This document shows positions 18,830 through 54,281 of a DNA stretch of 64,000 nt, piece by piece. Source of the stretch: Glaciozyma antarctica PI12. Taxonomy: Eukaryota > Basidiomycota > Microbotryomycetes > Kriegeriales > Camptobasidiaceae. Positions within the stretch are counted from its first letter, which is position 1. Each line of letters begins with the position of its first letter. The DNA is taken from NCBI GenBank assembly GCA_002917775.1, contig KZ627148.1, positions 638,949 to 702,948 of the forward strand, given 5' to 3'. The notes beneath the pieces were generated by a model that did not search any database, was not told the origin of the DNA, and saw only the letters and a program-made list of their open reading frames with translations. The position numbers and the translations under genes are program-made.

Positions 18830-20317
18830 TCAGAAAGCAGGGCCGCAGTTGGTTGCGAAGCCTCGCTGACAGACGTAAGGCTAGCGAGAGCAGTTGGTCA
18901 GTTTGAGATCGTGCAAATAACGTAAAGCAACGCACCTGGAGCGTCGGCTCTTTGGGAACATTGACGGAGGTTGCCAAGGTGACCGCGTTCAGCAGGAGTG
19001 ATCTCAAGAGAGGGGGCGTGTTGCTGGCGTCGAGTAGGACGTTATCCTCTGCAAATCGCAAGACCAACTCAGTATCCTAGTCTCCGCGCAGCGGGAGAGA
19101 AAGCAAGCGCACTGAGGTACGTGCAGTACGTCTTGTCGAACTGAGAGGACTTGATCGGCCCCCCGTTCTCGAGAGTTGCCAGAGCGAGACCGAAAGCCGC
19201 TGGGTCGACGATTATAGTGAAGTGGTTTGCAACGTGTAGGACACCGCAGACGTTGAGGGCTTGAAGAGGGAACATGGTGGCGCCAGGAAGAGAAGAAGAC
19301 GGATTGATGATCTGCGGCTGAACGATCTGAGAGGAATGTAAGTCACAAGGTACGAAGAATTGCTTGAGGGAGTAACTCACCTCGTCCGTAATCTGTGCGG
19401 GAGAGAGGCAAGTCAGAACCTGCGCAGCGAAGAGGAGCGAGGGAGACGCACCGTGTAGATTGATGTGGTGGGGACCAGCGCACGGCCTCCTCCTCCAGCG
19501 AGGAGCGAGTTCTGCGCAGCGAGGTACTTGCTTCCGGCAGTCTGCTGCCAGACAGCTGGGGCGCAGCTAAGTTACGCGCCAGATCAGCTCGCTTGTCGCG
19601 AAGAGTGGGGCTGCGAACCTACGTTCCAAGCTTGAGGGGATTGCAGAGCAGCAGTCCCTGGATAGTACCACGGAAATCAGGAGCTAGTCCGATGTAATTG
19701 GTAACGAGCGGGCGAATCGAGGGCCAGAACGCTGTGCGAAGGGGGTCATCAGCTTCGCGGTGATGGGGACGGCGAGGAGAACGCACTCAACGCCCACTGA
19801 GGATTTACACCGCCTCCTTGCGAATGTCCAATGATCGATACCTTGCCCGTAGAGCTTTTCGAAGCCAAGTGCTTGACGCCGTACGCGACATACTCCGCCG
19901 AGCGCTGCACGTCGAGGACCGAACGTCCTGGCAAATCAACCTGAGAGCAGGCGGTCAGTCACCCGATCTGCGCTCCCAATGAGTCAAAAGGGACGAACCC
20001 AGCACACGTCGTAGCCCTTTCCCCCAGCCGGCAAGATCTTCACGTACGGACCAGCGGCCCAGCTCTCTGCGCCAGACGATCCTGTGCCGTGAACGAGAAA
20101 GACGATCCCACCTGCCTTCTTCTTGATGCCGTTGGGACAAGTGATTGCTGCTTCGATCGTCGCAAGAGGGATGGAGAAGGGAGCATCCTTGATCGCGCGT
20201 GGAGAAGGCTGCAAACGGGGTCAGCGCGAAATCGGCCCTGCCTCGCAAGCGAGAACGTACAGCGGCGTGGGCAGCTCCTGCGAGAGCACTCAAGAGGATC
20301 GCAAGCTTGAAGAGCAT
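18830..20317 (-). CDS. Secreted lipase of the Candida antarctica lipase B family
   Basis: Predicted extracellular serine lipase/esterase. The signal peptide is MLFKLAILLSALAGAAHAA. An oxyanion-loop region (FLVHGTGSSGAESW) precedes the nucleophile elbow SIIGHSQGGG, with Ser flanked as in GxSxG. Next come LAPDFRGT, VWQQTAGSKYL, LVPTTSIYT, then ITDEIVQPQ (matching the CalB segment with the catalytic Asp) and CGVLHVANHFTI (candidate catalytic His). The protein ends PYVCQRGFATNCGPAF. Eight introns give nine exons that stay in frame. One exon is only 12 bases (19381-19392, ITDE). Cys near the end may pair as in CalB. The similarity runs along the whole chain, so the family is secure; preference for triglycerides over other esters is unknown. 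Confidence 0.88.
19381..19392 (-). other. 12-base exon carrying the predicted catalytic Asp of the lipase
   Basis: Within the lipase gene, an acceptor CGCACAG and a donor GTGAGT flank exactly 12 bases coding Ile-Thr-Asp-Glu. The joined protein reads IYT-ITDE-IVQPQ, matching CalB around its catalytic Asp. Skipping the exon keeps the frame but would remove that Asp. Confidence 0.85.
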
Positions 20318-49550: not shown

Positions 49551-50196
49551 CTACTCTACCTTGACCCCCATCTCCTTCCAATCCAGTTCCCTCGCGGACG
49601 AATTGTTGGGCGAACCCCCTCGTCGTCGAAGCGTCGCGAGACCAGGTGGCGATATCGAGTGGACGGGATTGGCGACCAGAGGACACGCACAGCGGTCCAC
49701 TCCTACGTACTCCCCCGAACCAGCTACGACATCGCACGTAGCCATATGAATAACTGCCAGCACATCAGCACTCGTCCCTTCGCTCGCTCGCACAGAGAGC
49801 AAGCTCACCACTCTCCCGTCCCCTCTCCGCCTCATTCCACATCTCCTCCTGCCTCAGCCTCAGCCCTTCCCCCTCCTTACACTCCCACGCCAGTTCCGCC
49901 GCGTCGAACCCCGCAGCAGCAATCACGCTCCGTTCCCTGAAATGGTTCCTCGGGGGACTTTGGCTGGCGTTTCGTTCGGCGGGCGTAGCGCGGGCGGCGT
50001 GGGCGTGGGCGACGTTGGAGGGGAAGGAGAGGGCGACGAGGGGGGAGATGGGGATGGAGGAGGTGGGCTGGTGGGTGGAGGTCGAGGGTTGGGGTGCCTC
50101 GGTGTTCTCGGTTGAGGAGGAGCCGGGAGCTGCTGGAGCTGCGGAGACGGCGGAGCTGCTGGGGTGGTGGCTCGAGCTTGGTTGTTCTGAGACCAT
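49551..50196 (-). CDS. Small protein of unknown function
   Basis: Not recognised. Start at 50196 (MVSEQPSSSHHPSSS). The N-terminal half is Ser/Pro/Ala-rich and disordered, then AAAGFDAAELAWECKEGEGL and RLRQEEMWNEAERGRES. One intron (GTGAGC donor, GGCAG acceptor, about 49758-49810) joins this to VIHMATCDVVAGSGEYVGVD, RCACPLVANP and a charged tail ending ELDWKEMGVKVE. About 195 residues. The Cys residues (WEC, ATC, RCAC) could hint at a CX9C-like mitochondrial intermembrane protein, but the spacing is not convincing. Confidence 0.6.
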
Positions 50197-50688: not shown

Positions 50689-52632
50689 TCAATCCAAAGT
50701 CATTCGACCATCGTCGTTCCCCGCTCCCACCTTCTCCGGTACGTCGGCCTTGTTCCTCCTCCTGTGGCCCCACGAATATGGCGGAACTGTGAGGTATCAG
50801 TACGTCGCGAAAAGGAGCGAGAGAGGGACGTACTAGCTTCCTTGAGACCTCGATCAAAGTTCGCGTAGCATAGGCCCGTGACGATGAACTGCTAGGGGGT
50901 TAGACGGCGAGCGGAGGAAGGAGGGGAGAACGTGCGGTGGCGAGGAGCATGAGGAAGGAGAGGATCGAGAAGATTGTGAGAGTCTTCTTGGCGGTTTCGT
51001 ACCGCTGCCCTGAGGAAGGCGTGAAGATGCGCACGAGCTTGTAGATGAAATACGCCTGCGTACACTCGCTGTCAGTGATGTGGTTCGGTGGGGGGAAAGA
51101 GGAGAGAGCGCACCATGCCAGCCATTTGGAGGAAGAACCACGCGTAGGTCGCTGGCCTGCTTTCGATTCGGATGATGTACGCTGCGCTGGAGTCAAAGTG
51201 GGTCGGTATGGGTCTGCAAAAGTGAGATGGGAAGACTCACAGTCCCAAGCAAACGAGGATTGTCGGCAGAGCGGCGATGGTGATGATCTTCTCCGCCGTG
51301 GGTGTTGCGGAGACCAGTACGAGGAACTGGATGCTGAACTGCGAGATGGATCGAGTTCAGCGCCTGCAGACTGGTAGGAAGCAGTGTACGCACTCCGATG
51401 AAGAAGAATCCGTCGAATTTCAGCAAAGTAATCTGCGACACGTTTCGTTAGCGAAGCCTGAGCGAGCCAAAGGTGGAAGGAGCGCACGTAGACCTGATAC
51501 ACAAAGTACATCCTCTTGATTGAAATATCGGCTCCCAGTTTCTTGAACACCTGCGCAGGAACGATCGGTTAGGTCAAGTCCCAGCTGCGGCGATGCGATG
51601 CTCACCTCCCACCCGAATTCCTCGTACAGCTTCCACAGCAGGAAAGCCATAACCAACGTCACAGCTCCAACGACGCTAGGAATCACGATGGAGTACGCGC
51701 GTACATGGCGGAGGACGCTGGCGGTCTCCGCTCGAGTCCCACTGATCGCTTCGCGGAGCTGAGAAGGCAAGACGGAGGAATACACGAGCATGGCGACTGA
51801 GTTTGATGCGTTAAAAAGTGTCCAGTCGTGAGCGAAGATGGTGAAAGGAGCGCACCTTGGAACGGAACGAGCATCGCAAGCTGCATGATGTTCTTCTGCG
51901 AGAGCGCGTCGAGCGAGACGCCGATTTCAAAGAGCCTGCGCCTGTTCAGCTTCGCAGTCTGTAGGAGAGATGACAGGACGTACTCGGCCAGGATGAACAG
52001 CCCAAGGTAGGTGCTGACGCTCTCCAGCTTTGGCGCATTCTCAAACGTTACGGAAGCAGGTATATCGGCGCCAATACCCGTGTTGACCGTCGCCTGCGAG
52101 GTACAGTTAGATGCTGGGCTCGTCCGCGGCGCAAAGAAAACTCACATAAATCACAGCAATCATGGTCAACACCGCCAGAGCTTGGAAGAAGATCAGGCTG
52201 AGGAACGCGATCTGTACACACCAGCGCAAGTTCAACTCCTGCCCTCCAAATGCGCCGTTCTTTCCTCGAAAGGGCAGCAAGCCAAAACAACAACGCACCT
52301 GATTACGCGTATTCAGCCCCGCCACGAACGACTCGAACCTCCCAGGCTCCGTGGCGCCCTCCTTCCGTCTCCCTCCTGGCTGGCTCCTCCTCGGATGCTG
52401 CTGGTCTGATGGTCTGAGCTTTTGGGCGATAAGATCCGTACGAATGTGAAGGGTGTCCGGCGGGGCGAGGGCAGGGTTGCTGAGGTGGGAAGGCGTCGGG
52501 AGAAAGGGGTAGAGGGGAGAAGTGTTCGGTAGGGGCTGAGGTGGTCTGCTGCTGTGGATTGCTGTACGAGTTGCTGAAGAGAGGGCTGTGAGATTCGTAG
52601 CTTGTTTCGCCGTAGCTGTGCTGTTCGTTCAT
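50689..52632 (-). CDS. UPF0658-family Golgi-type multi-spanning membrane protein
   Basis: Fungal membrane protein of unknown activity (the S. pombe member is annotated as Golgi). A disordered N-terminus (MNEQHSYGETSYESHS) precedes FESFVAGLNTRNQ and the membrane part: IAFLSLIFFQALAVLTMIAV, YLGLFILAEYVLSSLLQT, IVIPSVVGAVTLVMAFLLW, LYEEFGWEVFKKLGADISIK, FDGFFFIGFSIQFLVLV, TYAWFFLQMAGMAYFIYKLV, LTIFSILSFLMLLATFIVTG. The C-terminus ends DDGRMTLD. Seven or more introns; one at 50889-50935 has a GC donor. The frame changes between about 52400 and 52560 in the low-complexity N-terminal part: the upstream frame has the ATG, the downstream frame reads DTLHIRTDLIAQKLRPSDQQ into the conserved domain. The conserved region itself is uninterrupted. 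Confidence 0.82.
50889..50935 (-). other. GC-AG intron
   Basis: On the minus strand the exon ends at GCCACC and the intron begins GCACGT, where the genome's usual donor would be GTACGT. It ends CTAGCAG after 47 bases and contains CTAAC as a branch-like motif. Removal joins MLLAT to FIVTGLCYANF in the final membrane span. No GT donor nearby keeps this frame. Confidence 0.8.
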
Positions 52633-52983: not shown

Positions 52984-54281
52984 ATGGACGGAGTGGCTGC
53001 CAAGATCGGCGCGACCAAACAAAAGGATCTCAAGGTGAGGCCTTCCCCCAGTCCTCGCCACGCAGCCCGAACCTCTCCAGCTCACCCCTCTCACCCTTAC
53101 CCTCCACAGCCTCAGAGCCATCACTTCTTCTATGTCGTGGTCTGGCTCATGGGAATCATCGCTCCTCCCGTCGCAGTGGCGATGCGGTTTGGCATCGGGA
53201 GGGACTTCTTTATCAACATCCTGTGCACGATCTGCGGCTATTTCCCAGGGCACGGTCACAAGTACGTTCGTCTCTACTCATTCACATTCATACGGAGGGG
53301 AGGCGTCGCACCGAGGAGGGAGCTTGGGGAAGGAGAGGCATGGACTGGAGCTGATTACCCCACTCTTTCTCTCTCGCAGCTTCGTAAGTCGGATCTAGCG
53401 AGCTCACCACGCGCAGGGGAAGGAAAGCTAACACAATCGCATGACTCGCAGTACTGCCAAACGATCCGAAACAACAACAACAAGGCGCGCACTCCCAAGT
53501 GGGCCGTCAAGTACGGTCTCGTCAAGCCCCTCGACACTCGTGGCGGCAAGCACCAGTGGGCCGGCCGCTACGATGGTGCGTCCCCCTCCCTCGACCCGCA
53601 GTTACTGCGCCGCTAAACTATTGCGCGCACGCAGAACGACTGCCCGACTCCGCACAACGAGAGTACGACGATCCCTCCTCCTCCACTCTCCCCTCCACCG
53701 CCGAAACCTGGGACGGCCGCGGTCCTCAACCTCCGTCCAAGGACGCCACTACGAACCGGAACGGACTGTCGGCGCGTCCTCCTGCAACGGCAACGGAGAA
53801 CGAAGAGCTTCTTCCCTAGTGGGAGCCAGGCGAGTGGGAGTATCAGGGGCGGGAGCAGCATCAAGAAGGGAAAGAAGAAGAAGGGGATCAAGGGGCTGTT
53901 TGGGAAGAGGTCGAGGTACGAGAATCAGGAGCCTGAGGACGCGGGAGGGGATCGATTCGAGAGGATGAACTCGGCGCATGGGTCGGCCGTCGTTCCGGTC
54001 GAGCGGACGGGGTACGAGATTGATGATATCGCACCGAGTCCGGGGGAGAGTAGAGGGAGGGACGAGGAGTATGCGGACGAGTTTGAGAGGGAGTTGAATG
54101 GGGGAGCGAGGAAGGCGACGGCGAGTGGGAACGACGACCCTTGGGCGATCAAGCCGACGAAGGAGGATCCTCTCAACGCAACACAGGGATCAAAAGATCG
54201 TGAGTCGCTTCCACGAATGCCTCGTTGCGGGAGCTGGGAGCTGATTGGGAATCTCGCACAGCTTTCAACCACACTTTTTAA
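52984..54281 (+). CDS. Sna3/Pmp3-family (UPF0057) small membrane protein with long polar tail
   Basis: Pmp3-type proteins are two-span membrane proteins of the plasma or vacuolar membrane. After MDGVAAKIGATKQKDLK comes the family signature: FFYVVVWLMGIIAPPVAVAM, FGIGRDFFINILCTICGYFP, GHGHNFY, CQTIRNN. HNFY is assembled through a 4-base microexon (53380-53383) between two introns (53262-53379 and 53384-53451). The tail continues RTPKWAVKYGLVKPLDTRGG, then a probable intron (about 53735-53819, donor GTCCAA, weak), a Lys-rich patch (KKGKKKKGIKGLFGKRS) and an acidic region, ending GSKDPFNHTF. If the weak intron is retained the protein ends at ENEELLP. The Sna3 subgroup has such cytosolic tails. 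I see no PPxY motif. Confidence 0.84.
53380..53383 (+). other. 4-base microexon in the Sna3-like gene
   Basis: The sequence reads CTCTCGCAG, then CTTC, then GTAAGT. The four bases complete an Asn codon and give a Phe codon, yielding GHGHNFYCQ, the family's conserved HNFY. Skipping them shifts the frame and loses the whole tail. Confidence 0.85.

Follow-up and report, generated by a model that had tools for sequence, protein, structure and literature searches.

A probable four-base internal exon, CTTC, in a Pmp3-family gene of the yeast Glaciozyma antarctica PI12

The closest described counterparts of the locus analysed here are the bglA genes of four basidiomycetous yeasts. Comparison with cDNA gave shortest exons of 5 bp (Sirobasidium magnum), 6 bp (Rhodotorula minuta), 18 bp and 64 bp (PMC9142197). 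Ten exons under 30 bp were described in the R. minuta gene and none of microexon size in Sterigmatomyces elviae, one of the four species, and the authors suggested that microexons are common in such basidiomycetous yeast genes (PMC9142197). Like our locus, these yeast genes are intron-dense, with introns of about 60 bp on average in three of the four; they differ in that another gene is concerned, the shortest exon is 5 bp rather than 4, and the structures were determined by cDNA, whereas ours was read from sequence alone (PMC9142197). The P450 genes of another basidiomycete, Phanerochaete chrysosporium, also combine short introns with exons down to 6 bp, although these are other genes with larger exons, and their structures came from a genome-wide gene survey (PMC1184071). 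A four-base microexon, reported to be constitutive, is described in human MPC1, where exon definition through a region of the introns on either side was argued for (PMC9929638); in a fungus with short introns, intron definition is the more likely mode. The exon of Arabidopsis APC11, a single nucleotide in a plant gene, was likewise regarded as too small for exon definition, and its authors favoured intron definition with recursive splicing, the introns being removed in turn (PMC4674806). A Cryptococcus paper mentions a microexon once (PMC3990503). Neither a 4-base fungal exon nor a Pmp3 microexon was found in the portions consulted of the open-licence literature on basidiomycetous-yeast microexons and Pmp3 introns. 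With high probability, the exon CTTC reported here is a new and slightly smaller example of a kind already known in basidiomycetous yeasts, and the four cDNA-based bglA genes (PMC9142197) indicate that exons this short are less rare in such yeasts than an earlier note on this DNA had held.

On the plus strand of the window, the whole stretch of 64,000 nucleotides that was analysed, lies a Pmp3-family gene. Exon 1 (52984..53034, MDGVAAKIGATKQKDLK) and the 75-base intron 1 (53035..53109) precede exon 2 (53110..53261), which holds the bulk of the Pmp3 domain (PF01679, 54.3 bits) and ends in ..GYFPGHGH plus the two bases AA. Intron 2 (53262..53379, 118 bases) has the donor GTACGT (8.4 bits), a branch-like CTGAT 29 bases before its end and the acceptor CTTTCTCTCTCGCAG, which at 9.3 bits exceeds the 98th percentile (8.7 bits) of 442 confident acceptors; the sequence CTCTCGCAG, ending at 53379, directly precedes CTTC. 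The microexon CTTC (53380..53383) completes the Asn codon of HNFY at its third base and contributes the whole of the Phe codon; it lies, as originally placed, between a strong acceptor and a GTAAGT donor at 53384. Intron 3 (53384..53451, 68 bases) has this donor (5.0 bits), a branch-like CTAAC 24 bases before its end and the acceptor CTCGCAG (4.1 bits), ending at 53451. Exon 4 (53452..53575, YCQTIRNNNNKARTPKWAVKYGLVKPLDTRGGKHQWAGRYD), the 59-base intron 4 (53576..53634) and exon 5 (53635..53819, with the stop codon TAG at 53817-53819) complete the gene. Introns in this genome showed a length peak at 50-60 bases, as the earlier note had expected; its description of the 118-base intron as unusually long was correct as to length, but the intron is not exceptional, as 56 of 580 introns were at least 118 bases long in gene models built under an intron length prior that we set ourselves.

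With CTTC included, the codons across both junctions (slashes) read CAC-AA/C-TTC/TAC, giving H-N-F-Y, and the predicted spliced sequence would include CACAACTTCTACTGC and ..CACAACTTCTAC.. The resulting protein of 171 aa has GHGHNFYCQ at this point and runs ..GYFPGHGHNFYCQTIRNNNNKARTPKWAV..RYDERLPDS.. It matched PF01679 at 57.2 bits, above the cut-off of 22.9, over positions 4-47 of the 49 in the profile, placing it in the Pmp3 family. HNFY is probably conserved among fungal relatives. Two bacterial relatives have HAIW, and the paralogues have HAFW, HALY and HAWW, so the Asn is not family-wide.

Splice chains were enumerated between exon 2 and exon 4 with GT/GC-AG sites (28 donors, 19 acceptors) and introns of at least 35 bases, yielding 221 one-intron and 3,685 two-intron chains, 3,906 altogether. 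HNFY was produced by a single chain, the one with the CTTC exon. The frame stayed open into exon 4 in 69 of the one-intron and 901 of the two-intron chains (970), and also when all 190 bases were retained. The earlier claim that CTTC alone restores HNFY and the downstream frame thus stands for the motif and falls for the frame. The pattern H-x-[FLWYM]-[YW] directly after GYFPGHG was found in four chains: the HNFY chain and three that give HKYY through a donor at 53266. Two of these three rely on absurd sites, and the remaining one is a single intron of 186 bases. On PF01679, the model with the CTTC exon was the best of five, followed by retention of intron 3 (55.2 bits, reading HNFVSRI and then a stop), the 186-base intron (54.0), skipping of CTTC as one 190-base intron (53.1; the frame is shifted, and a long frame is still open) and retention of both introns (51.4). 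CTTC falls within the size of a microexon, about 30 bases or fewer, has a usable site on either side (9.3 and 5.0 bits) and is needed for a product with the probably conserved HNFY. It is not a zero-length exon of the recursive-splicing type (a ratchet point, AG/GT), as four bases lie between the sites and are needed for HNFY; the site may still operate like a ratchet point.

A homology-blind gene model was built by dynamic programming on splice-site scores, codon usage and intron length, and short exons were given no bonus in it. Its output was precisely the set of five exons, CTTC included. The total was 40.5 bits with the CTTC exon, compared with 35.0 when 53266-53379 was removed and intron 3 retained, a model that inserts 24 extra residues into the motif, and 28.2 for full retention. 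These totals depend on site scores whose training sequence included the window, and on two settings of our own, the intron cost and the length prior; with an intron cost 5 bits harsher, the margin over the second-best model would shrink to 0.5 bits.

The arrangement of sites was then compared with chance. Both strands of 264 kb (the window and L005-L024, including 3,466 N) were scanned together with three Markov copies. The combination of an acceptor of at least 9 bits, its branch-like motif and, no more than 12 bases further on, a donor of at least 4.9 bits occurred once in the real sequence, at CTTC, and never in the three copies. At laxer thresholds, acceptor-donor pairs were more frequent in the real sequence than in the copies at every spacing of 60 bases or less (10 vs. 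3.3 at 1-6 bases), so this excess is nothing particular to tiny exons. When the inner part of the 190-base stretch was replaced 20,000 times each by Markov or genomic sequence, an equal or better frame-keeping exon of at most 12 bases arose in none of the Markov and one of the genomic replacements, and an intron as good as the 186-base one, or better, arose in 480 and 562, respectively. A loose scan for microexons gave 20 candidates, 11 of them with a length not divisible by three, of which six fitted inclusion, one skipping and four neither, a result that is suggestive only; under strict coding thresholds, no microexon candidate was found in 27 chains.

A second, independent 4-base exon appears to be required in the same genome, in a K+-channel gene on the minus strand. 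This predicted exon, GGCG (L016:5300-5303; G000:C3:115300-115303), lies between introns of 52 and 49 bases and encodes the second Gly of the selectivity filter TTIGFGD and the first base of the Asp. The gene model contains two filter motifs, TTIGFGD and TSIGYGD, and its predicted spliced sequence with the microexon is GGCTTCGGCGACATA. TxGFGD was obtained in four of 3,755 enumerated chains, all sharing the 52-base first intron; the second intron was of ordinary length in the GGCG chain only and measured 435, 435 and 471 bases in the others. Ion_trans_2 matched the whole model at 79.5 bits in two stretches and its first 200 aa at 53.3 bits. With GGCG skipped, the match dropped to 22.2 bits and a stop followed immediately.

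Splice-site strength, protein-family fit, the homology-blind gene model and the second 4-base exon elsewhere make the 4-base exon the best-supported reading, and we consider it highly probable that this stretch is a Pmp3-family gene with a real 4-base internal exon, whatever the share of transcripts that include it. The sequence, the strength of the sites, the frame and the uniqueness of HNFY are direct observations; that the cell splices the gene in this way is very probable, and the exon is most likely always included. The CTTC exon might instead be real and alternatively used, a variant within the same explanation in which inclusion would give Pmp3 and skipping or retention a different tail. 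Such a switch would be compatible with the long open frame after skipping and the frame kept by full retention, and a Trichoderma microexon works as a switch in the account cited (PMC11121469). We judge it rather improbable, as skipping or retention would cost the protein its tail or break up the motif, and the strong flanking sites suggest constitutive use.

The serious rival to the CTTC exon, overlooked in the earlier note, is the single 186-base intron (53266..53451, plus strand) with the donor GTTCGT, by which CTTC would be intronic, the protein would read GHGHKYYCQ, with HKYY in place of HNFY, and the predicted spliced sequence would be CACAAGTACTACTGC. Frame and length would be unchanged with one intron fewer, and introns of at least 186 bases made up 22 of 580 in the gene models. 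GTTCGT is a donor in use in this genome: in the interval 46-66 bases upstream of strict acceptors, 24 copies with no GT four bases before them were counted where 3.5 were expected, and about 32 of 618 expected introns were assigned to it in an unbiased expectation-maximisation fit. At 5.0 bits it equals GTAAGT, so the donor of the microexon is no stronger. We had counted GTTCGT as a weak donor against the 186-base intron and dropped this argument, as the first matrix was trained on GT[AG]NG donors alone and the unbiased count demonstrated use. That GTTCGT is the mere tail of longer GTNNGTTCGT donors was ruled out, since 24 of 29 foreground cases had no GT four bases upstream. Against the 186-base intron, its gene-model total of 28.1 lies 12.4 bits below that of the CTTC exon and its Pfam score, a difference of just 3.2 bits for HNFY over HKYY, is also lower. 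It would further leave as coincidence a near-perfect acceptor and a GTAAGT four bases apart, in frame and encoding N-F, which the 20,000-fold replacements produced zero times and once. On this evidence, the 186-base intron is very unlikely. Position 53266 is a second candidate donor four bases downstream of the intron 2 donor (GTACGTTCGT), a tandem-donor arrangement, and could yield a minor HKYY isoform. Finally, that nothing is spliced here, the frame being open throughout with no in-frame stops and giving a 233-aa protein with 62 extra residues, is scarcely credible given the lowest Pfam score among the models scored (51.4 bits), the strong splice sites of both introns and the intron that the paralogue L002 carries, by eye, at the same codon boundary.

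The CTTC exon would be readily accommodated under intron definition, in which the splicing machinery of this intron-dense fungus would take each short intron as its unit of recognition. For introns of the size found at the peak, 50-60 bases, the two splice sites are generally assumed to pair with each other across the intron. Under intron definition, an exon between two introns would have no minimum length. The 118- and 68-base introns would leave in succession: only four bases separate the CTCTCGCAG acceptor from the GTAAGT donor, which gives U2AF/U2 and U1 little room to be bound there at the same time. This sequential removal is our inference and agrees with what was argued for the Arabidopsis 1-base exon (PMC4674806). 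Intron 3 may be the older of the two, with intron 2 gained later at a site four bases upstream, because the L002 intron at HAF/W lies, by eye, in the same place as HNF/Y. The 186-base intron would use the HNF/Y boundary too, and the position of the L002 intron does not separate it from the microexon.

Further tiny exons were predicted in this genome. The Pmp3 paralogue L004 probably has a 5-base exon, ACATC (L004:1939-1943; ..HALY I/ILKY and stop), and the predicted spliced sequence CTTTACATCATCCTC. With ACATC, the protein ends ..GIIHALYIILKY (..HALYIILKY) followed by the stop and matches Pmp3 positions 1-49 of 49 at 86.3 bits, compared with 82.4 bits when the exon is skipped and 83.8 bits when the last intron is retained; this end was found in one of 29 terminated models. 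Against ACATC stand the gene score, 31.2 with the 5-base exon vs. 35.7 with the last intron retained, and the weak donor GTAAGATC (1.8 bits). A Na+/H+-exchanger-like gene on the minus strand has a predicted 14-base exon (L007:3631-3644), TACTTTGCTCTTTC within LFLPLYFALSGLKT; PF00999 matched at 66.9 bits with this exon and the downstream part and at 46.8 bits when the model was cut off there, a difference that partly reflects length. In a gene model made up of repeated units, 9-base exons (GCCCTGCCG, GTCCCGAAG and GTCCTGAAG; G000:C3:49105-49113, 49912-49920 and 50795-50803, minus strand; L009, L010) were predicted at corresponding positions of three units, as though exon and introns had been duplicated together. 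A 12-base exon, ATTACGGACGAG, was predicted on the minus strand of the window (19381-19392) in a gene of lipase-like look, with ..TSIYTITDEIVQPQ.., which we take to be a lipase-like motif that may hold a catalytic Asp; the hydrolase matches of this gene on Pfam were weak and below the cut-off. Among 442 internal exons in the gene models, 27 were at most 15 bases and six at most 6 bases long, in a list that includes errors (one zero-length exon; one 3-base exon in a 79-aa model). Of these six, we trust the two 4-base ones, CTTC and GGCG.

Searches for relatives confirmed none in the genome-contig and viral-contig scans; the 78 plasmid records were all bacterial by organism tally, and the PDB search gave one distant chain. 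Further matches to the tail in the yeast's own genome were weak (E 0.05 to 1), and two motif strings looked up as text had no match. A search for the carotenoid desaturase family yielded fragments below the cut-off only, in a genome split by introns, and does not establish the organism as a red yeast, the term used in the earlier note. The donor consensus in the 264 kb of this genome (G000) was unusual, with C at +4 in 63%; GTGCGT, GTGAGT and GTACGT were far commoner than GTAAGT, and GTTCGT was a regular donor.

We give about even chances to a broader reading, that exons of 3-6 bases are in routine use in this lineage, even in its most constrained motifs (the K+-channel selectivity filter and the Pmp3 membrane turn), exon length being irrelevant under intron definition, and that two Pmp3 paralogues, each with introns lying close together, at sites that differ between them but fall in the same dozen bases, reflect repeated intron gain or sliding. 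With its two short introns, the 4-base exon would cleanly test what distance between acceptor and donor intron definition still tolerates, and whether removal of the introns follows a set order. Read mapping is difficult for exons under 8 bases (PMC8042270), so in intron-dense basidiomycetes protein annotation may go wrong at the very motifs that identify the proteins. Gene-finding in such yeasts must allow for exons that nearly vanish.
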